From: Williamsia sp. 1138
GTDB taxonomy: Bacteria > Actinomycetota > Actinomycetes > Mycobacteriales > Mycobacteriaceae
Length of the DNA: 64,000 bases
Direction: 5' to 3'
Assembly (NCBI RefSeq): GCF_002095435.2
Contig: NZ_MJEJ02000054.1
Location: forward strand, 186,001-250,000
Position numbers and translations under genes: made by a program
Notes under the pieces: model-generated
What the model was told of the DNA's origin: nothing
What the model saw: only the letters and a program-made list of their open reading frames with translations
Database searches by the model: none
Part shown: positions 35,783 through 43,399 of the stretch, in pieces
Position numbering within the stretch: position 1 is the first letter of the stretch
How the letters are laid out: every line of letters begins with the position of its first letter

Positions 35783-36397
35783 TCAGGTGAGGACGAGCGC
35801 AATGCTCTCGACGAGTACCCCGACGAGGTCGTCGAGGGAATCGCTCCCCAGCGCACCCACCATCTCGTCGGAGCGCATGCTGATGACCGATTCCACCAGC
35901 CGGAACGGAACGTGCCGACGGGGGTCGGACTGATCACCGAGGACCTCACCGGCCAGCTGCGCGTAGATGCGTGCCAGATCGGTGCGCGCCTGCCGGAACT
36001 CTGCGAATCGCTGCGTGCGCAGTTCGGGCAGTAGATAGAGCGCGCCGAGGTTCCAGCGCGATGCGGCGAGTTGGCCGGCATCGAAGCCTGCCAATTCCTG
36101 AAGTCGGGCAAGCGTCGGACCGTCGGCCGCCGCGACCTCCCGCGCCTTCTCGAGCGGCGCCACGACGGTGTCCTTGAGCAGGGACTCGAGGATGTCGTCT
36201 TTCGTCTTGAAGTGGTGATAGAGCGAGGCCTGCCGGATCCCCACCGCCTCGGCGATCATCCTGGTGGACGTACCGGCGTAGCCACGCGTGGTGAACAGTT
36301 CGGCCGCGGCGTCCCTGATCTCCTCGCGAGCGGTGGCACCACGACGTCGTTGTTCCACCAACCGAGGGCGCCCTGGGCCTGCCGCAACATGAGTCAC
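35783..36397 (-). CDS. TetR-family regulator of the guanidine/urea-type operon
   Basis: A 204-residue TetR protein from GTG 36397 (a longer frame to 36490 is open). The HTH region is REEIRDAAAELFTTRGYAGTSTRMIAEAVGIRQASLYHHFKTK. It is divergent from the permease gene, and the intervening 212 bases hold at least two pairs of inverted repeats. It is the obvious candidate repressor for the permease-DUF1989-carboxylase-hydrolase operon, though the effector is unknown. Confidence 0.85.
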   Translation of the reverse strand: MTHVAAGPGRPRLVEQRRRGATAREEIRDAAAELFTTRGYAGTSTRMIAEAVGIRQASLYHHFKTKDDILESLLKDTVVAPLEKAREVAAADGPTLARLQELAGFDAGQLAASRWNLGALYLLPELRTQRFAEFRQARTDLARIYAQLAGEVLGDQSDPRRHVPFRLVESVISMRSDEMVGALGSDSLDDLVGVLVESIALVLT

Positions 36398-36482
36398 AAG
36401 TGCTGACCATACTGTGATCTGCGCACCCTTGATGGCGTCCGCGCCGGTCAACGAGCCCCTGACCTGCACCGAGTGCGTTCTC

Positions 36483-36573
36483 GGAAACATACTTGTTTCA
36501 CGCGTTTGCGAGCCGGAAACAAACCTGTCACTCGACAGAAATAGCTGCGCGGTTATCTGTCACCTGACAGATA
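36483..36573 (+). promoter_or_regulatory. Tandem operator candidates in the divergent TetR/permease promoter
   Basis: There are two repeat types. GGAAACATACTTGTTTC at 36483-36499 and the related GGAAACAAACCTGTCAC at 36515-36531 share GGAAACAnAC-TGT. CTGTCACTCGACAG at 36525-36538 and TATCTGTCACCTGACAGATA at 36554-36573 share CTGTCAC-GACAG; the latter has perfect eight-base arms. The sites overlap the expected core promoter. They look like TetR operators; no riboswitch-like fold was recognised. Confidence 0.6.
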
Positions 36574-36609
36574 CCAGGGCTCATGGGCCCCTTAGCAGGA
36601 AGATCTCCC

Positions 36610-38178
36610 ATGACCGCAACCGCGCAACCTCCCAGTGCCCCAGTGAGCGGCGGTGCCGGACGAACGCCCGACGCCGACGATCTTTCCGAGTTCGGCTACA
36701 CCCAGCAGCTCCATCGCTCGCTGGGAACCTTCGCGTCGTTTGCGGCGGGATTCTCGTTCGTATCCATCCTGACCACGATCTTCCAGCTGTTCGGTCTCGG
36801 CTTCTCGTTCGGCGGTCCGGCGTTCTTCTGGACCTGGCCCATCGTCTACGTCGGCCAGTTCCTCGTCGCGCTCTGTTTTGCCGAGATCGCCGCTCGTTAC
36901 CCGATTTCCGGTGCGATCTACCAGTGGTCGCGCCGCATGGGCGGAGAGGTCATCGGCTGGTTCGGTGGCTGGTTCATGATGCTTGCCCAGATCGTCACCG
37001 CCTCTGCTGCCGCGATCGCCCTACAGGTGGTCATGCCCTCGATCTGGGACGGCTTCCAGATCATCGGCGACGACGCAGCACTGACCACCACCAGCGGCGC
37101 CGCGAACGCAGTCCTGCTCGGGTCGGTCCTGCTGGTGATCACCACGTTCATCAACTGCATCGGCGTCAACTGGATGAGCCGGATCAACAACATCGGCGTC
37201 ACCTGTGAGATCGTCGGCGTCACCGCGGTGATCCTGGCGCTGTTCACCCACGCCGAGCGCGGCCCCGACGTCGTGTTCGACACCGGATTGCCCGGCCAGC
37301 AGCCCGGTTACATCTGGGCCTTCATCGTCTCCGGACTCATGGCGGCCTACGTGATGGTCGGCTTCGGCTCCGCAGGTGAACTGGCCGAGGAGACGAAGAA
37401 CCCTCGTCGGGTGGCACCGCGGACGATTCGACTGGCACTGACGGTGTCGGCGATCGGTGGCGGGCTCATGCTCCTGGGCGCCCTCATGGCCGCGCCCAGC
37501 CTCGGTGAGGAACTGGCGGTCGGCGGCCTGCCCTACGTCCTCGATTCGGTACTCGGCTCCTTCTGGGGCAAGGTGCTGCTCTGCGACGTCGTCGTCGCGA
37601 TCTTCATCTGTACCTTGGCCATTCAGACCGCCTGCTCACGGCTGATGTTCTCGATGGCTCGCGACGACCGGCTGCCCGCATCGAAACTCCTGAGCCACGT
37701 GAACGCACGCACCGGAACCCCCATCGCTCCGTCCGTGCTCATCGGCGTCCTGTGCATCGGCGTCCTCGTCGTCAACATCGGCAACTCCGCGATCTTCGCG
37801 ACCCTGGCCAGCGTCTGCATCATCCTGATCTACCTCGCCTACCTCTCGGTCACCGGGCCGATGCTCTGGCGCAGACTGAAGGGCTGGCCTGGCAACACCA
37901 CCAGCGCCGTCGACGCCGAGGGCAAGAAACTATTTACGTTGGGCCGCTTGGGAATCCCGTTGAACCTGCTGGCAGTTGTCTACGGACTGCTGATGGTGAT
38001 CAATCTTGCCTGGCCACGTGCCGAGATCTTCGACCCTGCCGGCGAGATGCCCATCCTCAAGTGGGCGGGCCCGATCTGCATCGTGGCGTCGATCCTGATC
38101 GGCATCGCCTGCTTCCCCCATGGCAAGAAGCACCCGATGCCCGTGAAGGTGTTCACCCCCGCAGTAGACGGCAAGTAG
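36610..38178 (+). CDS. APC-superfamily amino acid/amine permease
   Basis: A 522-residue membrane transporter with about 12 hydrophobic spans and the APC amino-acid permease pattern (FGYTQQLHRSLGTFASFAAGFSFVSI near the N terminus; GSAGELAEETKNPRRVAPRTI in the middle). I chose ATG 36610, preceded by AGGAAGA; ATG 36583 is in frame. It lies first in the operon, so it probably imports the nitrogen compound used by the downstream enzymes, such as guanidine, urea or an amine. Confidence 0.85.
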   Translation: MTATAQPPSAPVSGGAGRTPDADDLSEFGYTQQLHRSLGTFASFAAGFSFVSILTTIFQLFGLGFSFGGPAFFWTWPIVYVGQFLVALCFAEIAARYPISGAIYQWSRRMGGEVIGWFGGWFMMLAQIVTASAAAIALQVVMPSIWDGFQIIGDDAALTTTSGAANAVLLGSVLLVITTFINCIGVNWMSRINNIGVTCEIVGVTAVILALFTHAERGPDVVFDTGLPGQQPGYIWAFIVSGLMAAYVMVGFGSAGELAEETKNPRRVAPRTIRLALTVSAIGGGLMLLGALMAAPSLGEELAVGGLPYVLDSVLGSFWGKVLLCDVVVAIFICTLAIQTACSRLMFSMARDDRLPASKLLSHVNARTGTPIAPSVLIGVLCIGVLVVNIGNSAIFATLASVCIILIYLAYLSVTGPMLWRRLKGWPGNTTSAVDAEGKKLFTLGRLGIPLNLLAVVYGLLMVINLAWPRAEIFDPAGEMPILKWAGPICIVASILIGIACFPHGKKHPMPVKVFTPAVDGK

Positions 38179-38209: not shown

Positions 38210-39064
38210 ATGACGATGACGTCCACCGGAACCACCGCCGGAGCTCGCGAGCACGCTCGCGCCCAAGCCGCCGCGATCACAGACACCATGCCCGTCGTGC
38301 CGGCATCGTCCTGGCCTGATCTGCCCGACAATGTTGCGGGGCAGGACATGACGTGGGCCGAGACAGTGCCTGGTGGGCGGTACACCGTCAAGGTGCTCGC
38401 GCGCGGCACCAGGCTCCGTCTGCGCGACGTGGCGGGGACAGGCTGTGCCAACGTGCTGCTCTGGCGCGCCGATGCACCCTGGGAGCGGCTCAACGTCGCT
38501 GACACCGTCAAGGTGCCCTGGCAGGCTTACCTGGGCACCGGCCATCCCCTGCTCAGTGACCAGGGCCGGGTCCTGGCCACCATCGTCGACGATGACTCCG
38601 GTCATCACGACGCACTGTGCGGCACCAGTACGCTGGCCGGGAACACCGCCAAATACGGTGCCGGTGAGGTCTACTCGCAGACTCCGGCCGGGCGTGAGCT
38701 GTTCTTGCTGGCCGCCGCGAAACACGGATTGCACGCCGCTGACGTGGCGCCGTCGCTGTCGTTCTTCCACGGCATCGTCGTCGAGTCCGACGGATCCCTG
38801 ACTTCGAAGGGTTCCGCGGGGTTGGACAAGCACGTCGACGTGTTGCTCCATCTGCCGTGCACGGTCGCGATCGTCAACACCGCGCACCCACTCGACCCCT
38901 CACCCGGGTTCGACGTGGGTCCGGTGGAGGTGCTCGCGTGGCGGGCTCCCGGTGATCTGGAAACCCTGCTCGCCGAGTTGCCCGACACCGACCCGGAATA
39001 CCAGCGTGCCGCCCTGAACTCCGAGGACGTCTGGGCCGCAGCACACTTCGAGAGGAACGCGTGA
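38210..39064 (+). CDS. DUF1989 protein, urea amidolyase-associated (carboxyguanidine deiminase subunit-like)
   Basis: A 284-residue DUF1989 protein, named in many genomes urea amidolyase-associated protein 1. Motifs include VKVLARGTRLRLRDVAGTGCANVLLW and SFFHGIVVESDGSL. In characterised bacteria a DUF1989 pair acts as carboxyguanidine deiminase, converting carboxyguanidine into allophanate. It is directly followed by its likely partner subunit with a one-base or four-base overlap. The assignment to guanidine over urea is based on this family knowledge, not on direct evidence here. Confidence 0.85.
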   Translation: MTMTSTGTTAGAREHARAQAAAITDTMPVVPASSWPDLPDNVAGQDMTWAETVPGGRYTVKVLARGTRLRLRDVAGTGCANVLLWRADAPWERLNVADTVKVPWQAYLGTGHPLLSDQGRVLATIVDDDSGHHDALCGTSTLAGNTAKYGAGEVYSQTPAGRELFLLAAAKHGLHAADVAPSLSFFHGIVVESDGSLTSKGSAGLDKHVDVLLHLPCTVAIVNTAHPLDPSPGFDVGPVEVLAWRAPGDLETLLAELPDTDPEYQRAALNSEDVWAAAHFERNA

Positions 39065-39732
39065 TGAGCACCGCCACCACATCATCGGCAGCAGAGTTGG
39101 CCCTGGTGCCCGGGACGGTGATCGGAGATCACGAGATCGGGCCCCGCGCGCCCTGGTCGGGGATCGTCGCGGCCGGCGACGTGCTCACGATCGTCGATCT
39201 GTACGGCAACCAGGCCGTCGACACCCTGTTCTTCGGCGGTCACGACCACTCCATCCGCTATTCGGCACAGGCGACCATCGCAGCCCAGGGCAACATCTTC
39301 CTGACCACCGGATCGGTGATCCGAGATCAGGATTCGGCACCGCTGATGACGATCGTGGCCGACGAGGTCGGCAATCACGACACGCTCGGCGGTGCCTGCT
39401 CGCAGGAGTCGAACACACTGCGGTACGGCCACCACACGAAACACCAGCACGCCTGCGTGGAGAACTTTCTCATCGGTGGTGCGCCCCACGGCCTGGGCAA
39501 GGCCGACATGGTGGGCAACGTCAACTTCTTCATGAACGTGCCCGTCGATCCCGATGGTTCCCTCGGCATCGTCGACGGACTGTCCGCACCCGGCAAGCGT
39601 CTTGCGCTGCGCGCCGAGGTGGACACGCTGGTCCTGATCTCCAACTGCCCGCAGATCAACAACCCCTGCAACGGGTTCGACCCCACCGCCGTCCGTGTCA
39701 TCGTGACCCGGCCCGGCGTGAGCGAGGCCTGA
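39064..39732 (+). CDS. DUF1989 protein, urea amidolyase-associated, second subunit-like
   Basis: A 222-residue DUF1989 protein related to the preceding one; WSGIVAAGDVLTIVDLYGNQAVDTLFF and NHDTLGGACSQESNT are typical. I chose ATG 39064, which forms TGATG with the previous stop; GTG 39061 adds one residue. The two DUF1989 proteins probably form a heteromer and together deiminate carboxyguanidine to allophanate. Next comes the carboxyltransferase gene after five bases. Confidence 0.85.
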   Translation: MSTATTSSAAELALVPGTVIGDHEIGPRAPWSGIVAAGDVLTIVDLYGNQAVDTLFFGGHDHSIRYSAQATIAAQGNIFLTTGSVIRDQDSAPLMTIVADEVGNHDTLGGACSQESNTLRYGHHTKHQHACVENFLIGGAPHGLGKADMVGNVNFFMNVPVDPDGSLGIVDGLSAPGKRLALRAEVDTLVLISNCPQINNPCNGFDPTAVRVIVTRPGVSEA

Positions 39733-39737
39733 CCACC

Positions 39738-41741
39738 ATGGCGAGCATCTCGATCCTGCGGGCAGGACCGCAGACCACCATCCAGGATTGGCCCGGGCGG
39801 ATCCGCTACTGGCACGTCGGCGTTCCGCCGTCGGGGCCGATGGACGACCTGTCGTTCCGGCTGGCGAATATCGCGGTCGGCAACGCCGAGGGTGCGCCCG
39901 GACTGGAGTGCACCCTGATGGGTCCGCAATTGCAATTCGACACCGACACCATCGTCGCCGTCACCGGCGCCCCCGTCACGCTGACCGTATCCGGCCAAGC
40001 TGTCCCACAGTGGGTTCCGATCACCCTCAAAGCCGGCGAGATCCTCGACATCGGTGCGGTCGGCTTCGTGGGGATGCGCGTCTATGTCGCTGTCGCGGGC
40101 GGAATCGACGCCGAGCTCTACCTCGAGAGCCGATCGACGTTCACCCTCGGCAAGTTCGGTGGCAAGGACGGCCGCGCCCTGGCCGACGGCGACACGCTTG
40201 CCACCGCCGCGACAGCTCCGTCCGGGGTGGCCCGACGCATCCTGGGCGACGAGAAGCCTGCGCTGACCAACAACTGGCATCTCGCTGTCACCGTGGGCCC
40301 GCACAGTGCCCCCGAGTTCTTCACGCCCGAGGACATCGACGATCTCTACAACACACCGTATGAGGTCCACTTCAACTCCGACCGCACCGGCGTTCGCCTG
40401 GTGGGCCCGCAACCCCGATGGGCACGCACCGACGGCGGCGAGGCGGGCCTGCATCCGTCGAACATCCACGACACCGCGTATTCAGTGGGGGCACTGGACT
40501 TCACCGGCGACACCCCGATCCTGCTCGGTCCGGACGGGCCGAGTCTCGGCGGGTTCGTCTGCCCGGTGACCGTGACCACCGCCGAGCGGTGGAAGCTCGG
40601 ACAGCTCAAGCCCGGTGACACCGTGCAGTTCGTCCCGGTCCGCGCGGCCGAGGTGGCCAGCGTCGCGAGTTTCGGCGAAGACCGGCGTGCGGGGTTCAGC
40701 ACTGTCATCTCCGCGGGCACCGACCTCGACAACGGGGTGCTCGGTGGATCGATGACGGCCGACGGCACCACCACGGTGACCTACCGCCGCAGCGGCGACG
40801 ACAACATCCTCGTCGAATACGGCGACATGAGCCTCGATCTCGCGCTTCGTGCCCGGGTACACGCGCTTGCCGAACGGATCGACGCCGAACGGCCTCCCGG
40901 GCTGATCACCCTCACCCCCGGCATCCGATCGCTGCAGATCAAGGTCGACCCCACCGTGATGCGGCAGTCGACGCTGCTCGACTGGCTGACCGAGTGCGAG
41001 GCCCAGCTGCCGTCGGCATCAGAGCTGGTCGTACCGAGCCGAACGGTGCATCTGCCGTTGTCCTGGGACGATCCGGCCACCCGCGAGGCGATCGAGCGCT
41101 ACATGCTCGGTGTCCGCTCGGATGCACCCTGGTGTCCCTGGAACATCGAATTCATCCGGCGGATGAACGGTCTCGACTCGGTCGATGACGTGCACCGGAT
41201 CGTCTACGACGCCGAATATCTGGTGCTCGGCCTCGGCGACGTGTATCTCGGCGCGCCCGTTGCGGTCCCGCTCGACCCTCGCCATCGGCTGATCACCACC
41301 AAATACAACCCCGCCCGCACGTGGACGCCGGAGAACGCAGTCGGTATCGGCGGCGCCTACATGTGCATCTACGGAATGGAAGGTCCGGGCGGATACCAGT
41401 TCGTCGGTCGCACCACCCAGGTCTGGAACCATCGGCATCCACTGCGGGCCGCCGGTTTCGAACCCGAACATCCCTGGCTGCTGCGCTTCTTCGACAAGAT
41501 CAGCTGGTACCCGGTCAGCGCCGATGAACTGCTCGACCTGCGGGCCGACATGGCCGCGGGGCGTGGCACAGTGGAGATCAGCGACGGCACGTTCTCGCTC
41601 GCCGAACACCAGCGGTTCCTCGACGACAACGCCGGCGCCATCACCGCGGATCGCTCCGCGATGGAGGCCGCCAGGGCAATCGAACGGCAACGTTGGTCCG
41701 ATGGTGGCGAGTTCGCCACCAAGACAGGAAAAGTGGCATGA
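39738..41741 (+). CDS. Carboxyltransferase-only urea/guanidine carboxylase (AHS2-AHS1)
   Basis: A 667-residue protein containing only the carboxyltransferase part of urea/guanidine carboxylase: an AHS2 domain (about 5-330; GPQTTIQDWPGRIRYWHVG, GPMDDLSFRLAN) and an AHS1 domain (about 360-590; YGDMSLDLALRARVH, LTPGIRSLQIKVDP). Family members are normally about 1200 residues with an N-terminal biotin carboxylase and a C-terminal biotin carrier. Neither is here, and no AMKM biotin motif exists in the protein. The missing partners are not elsewhere in this window, so they must be supplied in trans or the protein has another role. Confidence 0.85.
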   Translation: MASISILRAGPQTTIQDWPGRIRYWHVGVPPSGPMDDLSFRLANIAVGNAEGAPGLECTLMGPQLQFDTDTIVAVTGAPVTLTVSGQAVPQWVPITLKAGEILDIGAVGFVGMRVYVAVAGGIDAELYLESRSTFTLGKFGGKDGRALADGDTLATAATAPSGVARRILGDEKPALTNNWHLAVTVGPHSAPEFFTPEDIDDLYNTPYEVHFNSDRTGVRLVGPQPRWARTDGGEAGLHPSNIHDTAYSVGALDFTGDTPILLGPDGPSLGGFVCPVTVTTAERWKLGQLKPGDTVQFVPVRAAEVASVASFGEDRRAGFSTVISAGTDLDNGVLGGSMTADGTTTVTYRRSGDDNILVEYGDMSLDLALRARVHALAERIDAERPPGLITLTPGIRSLQIKVDPTVMRQSTLLDWLTECEAQLPSASELVVPSRTVHLPLSWDDPATREAIERYMLGVRSDAPWCPWNIEFIRRMNGLDSVDDVHRIVYDAEYLVLGLGDVYLGAPVAVPLDPRHRLITTKYNPARTWTPENAVGIGGAYMCIYGMEGPGGYQFVGRTTQVWNHRHPLRAAGFEPEHPWLLRFFDKISWYPVSADELLDLRADMAAGRGTVEISDGTFSLAEHQRFLDDNAGAITADRSAMEAARAIERQRWSDGGEFATKTGKVA

Positions 41742-43399
41742 GCAGGATCGCTGACATCTACGACCTCATCGACGCGGCCGATCGACCCGAGGTGTTCATC
41801 AGCTTGCGCGAGCGGGCCGACGTCGAGCGGGACTACGAGTCCTCCCTTGCCGGAGGCGGCGCGCTGGCAGGGGTGGTGCTCGCGGTCAAGGACAACGTCG
41901 ACGTCGCAGGGCTGCCGACGACGGCCGCCTGCCCCGGCTTCGAATACGTGCCGGAGAGAGACGCCGCAGCAGTGGCCGCACTGCGGTCGGCGGGCGCAGT
42001 CGTCATCGGCAAGACGAACCTCGATCAGTTCGCGACCGGGCTCGTCGGCACCCGCAGTCCCTACGGCGCAGTCCGTGATTCGCGACGTCCCGAACGCATC
42101 TCCGGCGGTTCGAGTTCGGGTTCCGCGGTCGCCGTCGCATTGGGATTCGCCGACATCGCCATCGGCACCGACACCGCCGGGTCCGGGCGGGTACCCGCGG
42201 GGCTGCAGGGCATCGTCGGCATCAAACCCACGCTGGGCGTGGTCAGTACGGCAGGCGTCGTCCCGGCGTGCGCCAGCTACGACTGCGTCACCGTCCTCGC
42301 TCGCGACCTCGACCTCGCCAACCGCGCGATGGGATCGATGGCGGGGACCGACAACTGGGGCACCGCAGTGCGCTTCGCCGCGCCGGACAGTCCGGTTGTC
42401 GCCGTACCCGCCCAGTTGCCCGGCTTGGACGAGAGGTGGCAGGACGCGTTCGAGGCCGCCATCGAGCGGGCCGAGACAGCCGGCGTCCGCGTCAAACGCA
42501 TCGACATCTCGGACTTCCTGGCCGCGGCGAAGCTGCTGTACGAGGGCGCCCTCGTCGCCGAACGTTACGAGGCGGTCGGCGAGTTCATCTCGACCGCAAG
42601 CGAATCCGCCGCGCTCGATCCGACTGTCGCGGCGATCATCGGCGCGGCCGACCGGTTCACCGCGGTCGAATTGCTCGCCGACCGGCGCCGGGTGGAACAG
42701 TTACGCGTGCGAGCACTGGCCACCCTCGGCGACGCCGACGCCCTGCTCGTCCCCACTGCACCCATGCATCCGACCCTTGATCAGGTCGCCGCCGACCCGA
42801 TCGGCGTCAACGCAGCGATGGGGACGTACACCAACTTCTGCAACCTCTTCGACATGTGCGCTGTGGCGGTCCCGGCCGGGACCGTCGACGACACCGACGG
42901 CACTGCGGCCCAATTCGGGGTGACGGTCATCTGCCGCGACCACGACGACGCCATCGCACTCGACATCGCAGGCCGCATCGGGACGCTGCCGGCAGGCGAA
43001 GGCCCTTCCTGGCCCGAACTCGCCGGCGCCGCCACCGCTGAGGTCTTCGTCGTCGGCGCCCACCTACGAGGGCAACCACTGATGCACCAGCTGACCGACC
43101 GCGGCGCCCGGTGGAACGGGGAGGCCGCCACCGCGGCGTCCTATCGGCTCGTCGCACTCGACACCCAACCGGAGAAACCCGGGTTGGTCCGCGACACCGC
43201 CGCCGGGACCTCGATCAGGGGCGAGCTGTGGACTCTCTCACCCGCCGCTCTCGGGGATTTCCTCACGGCCCTACCGACCCCGATGACCCTCGGCGCGGTG
43301 GAACTAGAGGGCGGTCGATGGACGGTCGGGTTCGCGTGCGATCACGAAGCGGTCGCCACCGCCGAACCACTGAGCGTGACGCACTGGCTCGAGCGCTGA
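41738..43399 (+). CDS. atzF: Allophanate hydrolase
   Basis: A 553-residue amidase-signature enzyme. The catalytic region contains AVKDNVDVAG with the lysine, GGSSSGSAVAVA with the serines and GTDTAGSGRVPAG. After about residue 430 comes the C-terminal allophanate-hydrolase domain (EVFVVGAHLRGQPLMHQL). It splits allophanate into ammonia and carbon dioxide. ATG 41738 overlaps the carboxyltransferase stop by four bases. It is the last gene of the nitrogen operon. Confidence 0.9.
   Translation: MSRIADIYDLIDAADRPEVFISLRERADVERDYESSLAGGGALAGVVLAVKDNVDVAGLPTTAACPGFEYVPERDAAAVAALRSAGAVVIGKTNLDQFATGLVGTRSPYGAVRDSRRPERISGGSSSGSAVAVALGFADIAIGTDTAGSGRVPAGLQGIVGIKPTLGVVSTAGVVPACASYDCVTVLARDLDLANRAMGSMAGTDNWGTAVRFAAPDSPVVAVPAQLPGLDERWQDAFEAAIERAETAGVRVKRIDISDFLAAAKLLYEGALVAERYEAVGEFISTASESAALDPTVAAIIGAADRFTAVELLADRRRVEQLRVRALATLGDADALLVPTAPMHPTLDQVAADPIGVNAAMGTYTNFCNLFDMCAVAVPAGTVDDTDGTAAQFGVTVICRDHDDAIALDIAGRIGTLPAGEGPSWPELAGAATAEVFVVGAHLRGQPLMHQLTDRGARWNGEAATAASYRLVALDTQPEKPGLVRDTAAGTSIRGELWTLSPAALGDFLTALPTPMTLGAVELEGGRWTVGFACDHEAVATAEPLSVTHWLER

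Follow-up and report, generated by a model that had tools for sequence, protein, structure and literature searches.

A 64,000-nucleotide stretch of Williamsia sp. 1138 (contig NZ_MJEJ02000054.1, positions 186,001 to 250,000; hereafter the window) contains at 39738–41741 on the forward strand a gene for the carboxyltransferase (CT) half of a guanidine/urea carboxylase, and this split is real, neither an artefact nor an isolated oddity. The open reading frame (ORF) begins with ATG and encodes 667 aa, in which a Pfam scan identified CT_A_B at residues 27-300 (E 2e-91), CT_C_D at residues 348-566 (E 6e-40) and no further domain; the initial annotation had described the protein as AHS2 and AHS1 only and had identified it rightly. 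The domain order is that of TIGR02712 (urea carboxylase, 1201 positions), which the protein covers over 448-1115 in a profile scan and the locus over 446-1119 in a six-frame genome search that reads through stop codons, and the score of 976 bits is below the curated cut-off of 1303.85. The N-terminal biotin carboxylase (BC) domain was not found in the protein, as the match begins only at 446-448, and neither was the C-terminal biotin carrier (BCCP) with its biotinyl lysine, as the match stops at 1115-1119 of 1201 without a Biotin_lipoyl domain. Both ends of the protein coincide with domain borders, which bears out the earlier description of a protein cut at domain boundaries on both sides.

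The absence of BC and carrier from the window, also stated in the initial annotation, holds for all 64 kb, in which no BC or biotinyl domain was found; the 8 Biotin_carb_C and 13 Biotin_lipoyl matches of the genome are all on other contigs. Two circumstances that could have undone the annotation, a full-length copy elsewhere and a frameshift, were not encountered. Domain and six-frame searches of the Williamsia genome found no full-length urea/guanidine carboxylase: the only other listed TIGR02712 match is a BC, and outside this gene CT_A_B and CT_C_D are matched only by a PxpC-PxpB pair, located on contig C26. A frameshift or assembly error hiding a longer gene was rejected on the six-frame search and on the related loci (the best 80 of 552 relatives from a scan of named genomes), of which 73 are likewise CT-only. 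These 73 belong to genera of the Mycobacterium-Rhodococcus-Gordonia-Williamsia group, and the seven fused ones are from Micrococcaceae (Sinomonas, Pseudarthrobacter, Arthrobacter and Paenarthrobacter).

Two other identities were considered and rejected. PF01039 (Carboxyl_trans) was not found in the protein, which is thus not an acyl-CoA carboxylase beta subunit. The 5-oxoprolinase PxpBC (KipI/KipA) also combines CT_A_B and CT_C_D without biotin parts, but there the two domains are on separate genes with PxpA as partner and the catalytic lysine is absent; the CT protein reaches only 130 bits on NF045499 (cut-off 500), and no PxpA is among the scanned neighbours (permease, UAAP1/2, allophanate hydrolase, TetR). 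With the characterized guanidine/urea carboxylases (KlUC, 3va7; KlUA, 5i8i) the protein shares the CT_A_B-CT_C_D order, the catalytic lysine and aspartate, and an operon with UAAP1/2 and allophanate hydrolase, and it matches KlUC over the CT part at E 1e-173; it differs in having neither BC nor BCCP (976 versus 1304 bits on TIGR02712). The structure model of the protein has a mean pLDDT of 65.8, with residues 489-615 below 50, and no claim is based on it.

The CT-only form is widespread in the group and not universal. In a sample of 200 genomes from the order, 30 are listed from the same family; 12 of these have a match, 11 of them CT-only as judged by frame length, and 18 have none. G050 carries a CT-only and a fused copy, and G235 a fused copy only. 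UAAP1 and UAAP2 stand directly before the CT gene in all 73 CT-only loci, a permease is present in 70, a divergent AmtR-like gene lies within 7 kb in 59, and allophanate hydrolase follows the CT gene in 60. The 13 loci without an allophanate hydrolase match downstream (L066, L070, L072, L074 and nine more) are from Rhodococcus, Rhodococcoides and Prescottella, and some of their contigs end early. Among the collected records, L030, titled Kitasatospora arboriphila, has 94-95% DNA identity to Williamsia muralis over about 12.5 kb and is probably a mislabelled or contaminated assembly, and L203 and L204 (3.97 and 11.85 Mb) are filed as plasmids, their size suggesting chromosomes.

To place the gene among its relatives, a tree of 81 CT sequences was built by a quick method with SH-aLRT support. 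The CT-only proteins of the window's group (clade 1) form a single branch (support 99) nested among fused actinobacterial enzymes, with the fused enzymes of Micrococcaceae, G476 and Nonomuraea as sister rows. This nesting indicates that the ancestor was fused and that BC and BCCP were lost from it. Another ten CT-only sequences form a clade of their own (clade 2, support 100), drawn from five additional families within the order (GTDB sense). In all 10 loci two UAAP-like genes precede CT and allophanate hydrolase comes after it, 8 of 10 have a permease, and an Rfam scan placed a guanidine-I riboswitch just upstream in 8 of 10; L184 has none at the gathering score, and the contig of L192 begins too near the gene. 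G121, from a further family of the phylum, also has a CT-only copy with all five genes. The branches are long and the positions of clade 2 and G121 unsure, so two or more losses are likely rather than proven. A divergent CT-only homologue was seen in G103 (L146, 8491-10446) beside rpoB-rpoC, with E501 and R522 in place of the catalytic aspartate and lysine; this genome (94% complete) gave no Biotin_carb_C match, and no UAAP, permease or allophanate hydrolase match was found in the fetched stretch.

Residue positions were mapped on KlUA by alignment. K1605 of KlUA is the general base (PMC5770610; papers are cited here and below from excerpts), Asp 1584 together with Asp or Asn at 1330 defines guanidine/urea carboxylases, and position 1330 tells the two apart, with Asp in guanidine carboxylases and Asn in urea carboxylases (PMC11410670, PMC12186494). 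The equivalents in the CT protein are K522, D501 and D254, so that the catalytic lysine, the aspartate and the guanidine-subtype aspartate are all in place, and all three are present in 81 of 81 clade-1 sequences. Clade 2 keeps the catalytic lysine and D501 in 10 of 10 sequences. For conservation, 34 rows were labelled fused with BCCP and the other 93 counted as CT-only; the fused enzymes have Asp at position 254 in 30 cases and Asn in 4. The 34 fused enzymes share 172 invariant residues, of which clade 1 retains 98.2% on average and clade 2 92.1%. Fused groups left out in turn retained 88.3-100% of what is invariant among the remaining fused enzymes, and clade 1 97.6-98.2% on the same sets. 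By comparison, the biotin-free paralogues of the Williamsia genome retain 42 of 79 (PxpC) and 15 of 82 (PxpB) fused-invariant residues. Moreover, dN/dS is 0.03-0.13 in nine CT-only pairs versus 0.08-0.09 in three fused pairs. The kept catalytic and fused-invariant residues and the low dN/dS together indicate that the CT-only protein would still perform the carboxyltransferase chemistry of the fused family, so the different reaction proposed in the initial annotation as one of two explanations is disfavoured.

The gene is embedded in a compact operon, and its permease, UAAP1, UAAP2 and allophanate hydrolase each score above their own curated cut-offs. An APC-family permease of the urea carboxylase system, presumably a guanidine importer (36583..38178, +; TIGR03428, 859 bits, cut-off 740), is followed by two DUF1989 proteins, the CgdA-type UAAP1 (38210..39064, +; TIGR03425, 275 bits, cut-off 206) and the CgdB-type UAAP2 (39061..39732, +; TIGR03424, 316 bits, cut-off 285), which overlap by 4 nt. 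The UAAP2 end is 5 nt from the ATG of the CT gene, whose stop codon overlaps the start codon of allophanate hydrolase (ATGA), which makes translational coupling of these two likely. The hydrolase (amidase plus AH_C; 41738..43399, +) has 615 bits on TIGR02713 (cut-off 511) in a scan started at 41741 and matches 4gyr at E 1e-112; the TTG start at 41693 in the ORF list is less likely than 41738. The pathway genes CgdA/CgdB and allophanate hydrolase are thus all present.

Divergent from the operon lies a TetR-family AmtR repressor gene (35783..36490, -). AmtR 5e57 is the best of 36 solved matches (E 8e-56) and aligns from residue 47 onward; the true start is probably inside the ORF. In front of the operon are two AmtR-box-like palindromes, CTGTC-N4-GACAG at 36525..36538 and a second of the same pattern at 36557..36570 (strand not assigned for either). 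The pattern was derived here from conservation, and the sites are predicted. Of the 29 sites that an exact search gave in the 80 related loci, 28, spread over 26 loci, stand 1.5-6.5 kb ahead of the CT gene. In the whole Williamsia genome the exact palindrome occurs 11 times, twice in this operon, and a control pattern 12 times, so by itself the pattern is no more frequent than chance. In M. smegmatis, AmtR represses the operon, nitrogen control itself acts via GlnR, the operon genes are induced on nitrogen starvation, and the excerpt reports no AmtR targets beyond this operon (PMC4222082).

From the above, we take the CT-only architecture, its conservation, its descent, the operon content, the active site and the lack of an extra BC (below) as established at the level of sequence. 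As to function, it is reasonably likely that the CT part of a guanidine carboxylase, having lost BC and BCCP, now works in trans, and that carboxybiotin is supplied in trans is, taken alone, a little more probable. In this scheme, the permease would import guanidine, and the BC of a housekeeping enzyme would load biotin on a separate carrier, using ATP and bicarbonate. The CT-only protein would transfer the carboxyl group to guanidine to form carboxyguanidine, which UAAP1/UAAP2 (CgdAB) would deiminate to allophanate, allophanate hydrolase would release ammonia and CO2, and AmtR would repress the operon. The most likely donor would be the shared acyl-CoA carboxylase alpha subunit AccA3, presenting its own BCCP domain or charging a TB7.3-like BCCP, an AccA3-type identity that we put forward tentatively.

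The following points weigh against this scheme. No assay of any CT-only member was found in the literature searched. The flanks retrieved for the 73 CT-only loci (up to 10 kb; the full 10 kb upstream in 67, about 10 kb downstream in 61) contain no BC or BCCP match, and no extra BC accompanies the CT-only gene when genomes with and without it are compared. In Williamsia, none of the BC genes has an exact AmtR-box-like site just in front of it; this test is weak, as it covered exact sites only, and in 54 of the 80 related loci the operon itself is not preceded by one. The surroundings of three of the nine non-operon sites were examined, and the palindrome nearest a BC gene has GC-rich flanks and follows a pyruvate carboxylase gene at a distance of about 1.9 kb from its end. 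G341 (clade 2; single contig, 100% complete) has two BCs only, one in a single-chain ACC (1828 aa) and one that stands alone; without a two-domain alpha, borrowing of an AccA-type alpha cannot hold there. No short BCCP frame was found in G423 (92% complete). As for guanidine, an Rfam scan of the window and of seven other clade-1 loci found no guanidine riboswitch, and clade 2, with Met at position 254 in 10 of 10 sequences, lacks the guanidine-type aspartate, which makes its substrate less sure.

We nevertheless regard guanidine as the highly probable substrate, favoured by D254, UAAP1/2, a separate urease and the clade-2 riboswitches. UAAP1/2 (CgdAB) function in the guanidine pathway (PMC11410670, PMC12186494). 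A urease alpha subunit was found in the Williamsia genome and in all in 12 of 14 CT-only genomes (weak in G434), and not in the CT-only genomes G278 and G481. The urea pathway needs no UAAP1/2, and around the Asn-254 copies of G050 and G235, the two of four fused Asn copies whose surroundings were examined, there is no UAAP gene, as would be expected of urea enzymes. A split carboxylase that acts on urea and supplies allophanate hydrolase, to which the TIGR02712 name, the published name urea amidolyase (msmeg_2187; PMC4222082, PMC4617892) and the missing clade-1 riboswitches would point, is therefore improbable against D254 in 81 of 81 sequences, both UAAP genes in 73 of 73 CT-only loci and the organism's own urease. 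In clade 2, Met-254 occurs in every sequence despite the riboswitch in 8 of 10 loci; a shifted substrate or another mode of recognition is possible there.

Could the enzyme dispense with biotin? It would then use free CO2 or bicarbonate, or another activated donor, with the reaction pulled by the next two enzymes. The lack of a consistent BC/BCCP partner across CT-only genomes, the appearance of CT-only forms in two or more distinct tree groups and the existence of biotin-free CT relatives (PxpBC) speak for such an enzyme. However, the protein retains the catalytic lysine and almost every residue that is invariant among the fused, biotin-dependent enzymes, and BC genes are present in 19 of 20 CT-only genomes examined, the exception being G103, whose homologue has R522 and E501 and stands outside the pathway. 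We consider a biotin-free enzyme rather improbable, slightly more so than a urea carboxylase.

The supply of carboxybiotin in Williamsia could come from existing enzymes. Its 8 BC genes are four pyruvate carboxylases and four acyl-CoA carboxylase alphas with both BC and BCCP. The BC proteins of 1130-1160 aa, considered as hidden carboxylases, carry HMGL-like and PYC_OADA domains and are pyruvate carboxylases; of these four genes (contigs C24, C34 and C35; L106, L107, L109 and L110), one pair is 96% identical and the others 73-77%. The 4 alphas face 7 betas, of which 3 adjoin an alpha and 4 do not, so sharing of alphas is already required. Three alphas have a beta next door and the fourth, L108, has none beside it; by size and setting, L108 may be AccA3. 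In M. tuberculosis, AccA3 serves AccD4, D5 and D6 (PMC5407890).

A dedicated BC-BCCP partner encoded elsewhere in each genome is, at this point, very unlikely. Williamsia does have four alphas, and one of them, L112, matches the urea carboxylase model better than any other in NCBIfam (599 bits, in its BC part). But L112 has its own beta next door, and in the six-frame TIGR02712 search its 560 bits are about equalled by the BCs of G096 and G150 (570 and 568 bits), two genomes of the family without the CT gene. Identity to the fused BC of Pseudarthrobacter is 41-50% for the Williamsia BCs, compared with 60-72% for fused BCs of other genomes and 78-92% for those of other Micrococcaceae. The BC counts are also alike: 8, 4, 5, 7, 7, 5, 5, 4, 5 and 4 in ten CT-only genomes of the family, 4-6 in the 18 genomes without the gene, and, within genus g2, 22 BCs in five genomes with the CT gene versus 72 in 16 without. 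The equal counts, the beta beside L112 and the missing AmtR-site link make a dedicated partner unlikely and a housekeeping donor the simplest reading. In G341, the stand-alone BC (L196, 3969-7679) directly follows a PxpA-PxpB-PxpC set, itself placed after an allantoicase gene, which suggests a biotin-linked Pxp-like enzyme.

As for separate carriers, Williamsia encodes a free BCCP of 74 aa (contig C7; L115, 5578-5802) with a biotinyl domain and an ESMKM motif, which passes NCBIfam NF004547 (biotin/lipoyl-binding carrier protein) with 118 bits (cut-off 75) and adjoins, as judged by eye, sigma-factor-like and anti-sigma-like genes. TB7.3/Rv3221c has been called a putative BCCP subunit (PMC3048393). 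By size, type and neighbourhood, we read the 74-aa protein as its putative counterpart. TB7.3-like carriers are not known to have a partner, and M. tuberculosis, which has TB7.3, is not known to carry this operon, so that the free carrier would not be specific to it. Six other CT-only genomes were searched for biotinyl domains: four (G341, G121, G433 and G321) have a short BCCP of 70-99 aa, 42-63% identical to that of Williamsia, and besides G423, G103 also gave no short BCCP frame. A three-part carboxylase in trans, in which the BC of a fatty-acid enzyme loads the freely diffusing TB7.3-like BCCP and this brings carboxybiotin to the CT-only enzyme, is a doubtful form of the scheme.

The borrowed acyl-CoA carboxylase alpha of the initial annotation is thus the best reading of its two explanations, as an inference that the lack of an extra BC and the case of G341 temper. 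The free TB7.3-like BCCP is a further candidate, absent from that annotation, as are the sharing of the form by many genera and its origin from fused ancestors. No link of co-regulation between a BC and the operon appeared in the weak test described above. Lastly, that the gene is a decaying remnant without catalytic function, as two of three essential domains missing might suggest, is hardly credible given its invariant active site, dN/dS of 0.03-0.13, conserved neighbours and the induction of the M. smegmatis operon on nitrogen starvation (PMC4222082).

The nearest precedent for such supply is found in actinobacterial acyl-CoA carboxylases, where stand-alone CT subunits (betas) are fed by a separate BC-BCCP protein, and sharing of one alpha such as AccA3 among betas is known (PMC5407890, PMC11001197). 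Those betas belong to the PF01039 family and act on acyl-CoA, whereas the Williamsia CT lacks PF01039 and belongs to the guanidine/urea type. The AmtR regulon of M. smegmatis (msmeg_2184-2189) has the same content, namely a permease, two frames of unknown function, a ‘urea carboxylase’ and an amidase; the paper says putative urea carboxylase, and its excerpt does not remark on missing domains (PMC4222082). The gene has been named urea amidolyase in this species, and R. equi has been credited with an ATP-dependent urea carboxylase (PMC6852188). Mycolicibacterium relatives are among the loci compared here, the M. smegmatis gene itself being outside them, and in these relatives as in the CT-only locus of Prescottella equi DSM 20307 (L066; 661 aa) the ATP-using half is missing, so that the protein alone cannot perform the annotated reaction.

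In summary, the operon, its control by AmtR and the urea carboxylase annotation were already known. The absence of BC and BCCP across the group, and again in clade 2, appears to be new: no CT-only urea/guanidine carboxylase is described in the listed titles and abstract openings of the open-licence literature searched, a scope that leaves subscription papers mostly outside. If the three-part carboxylase were true, the orphan TB7.3-like carrier would gain a job, guanidine use would draw on the carboxybiotin pool of lipid synthesis, and a fused enzyme would have been dismantled, perhaps more than once. If the CT-only enzyme worked without biotin, it would represent a new carboxylation chemistry; if it works in trans, a single carboxybiotin pool would serve both lipid synthesis and the scavenging of nitrogen.

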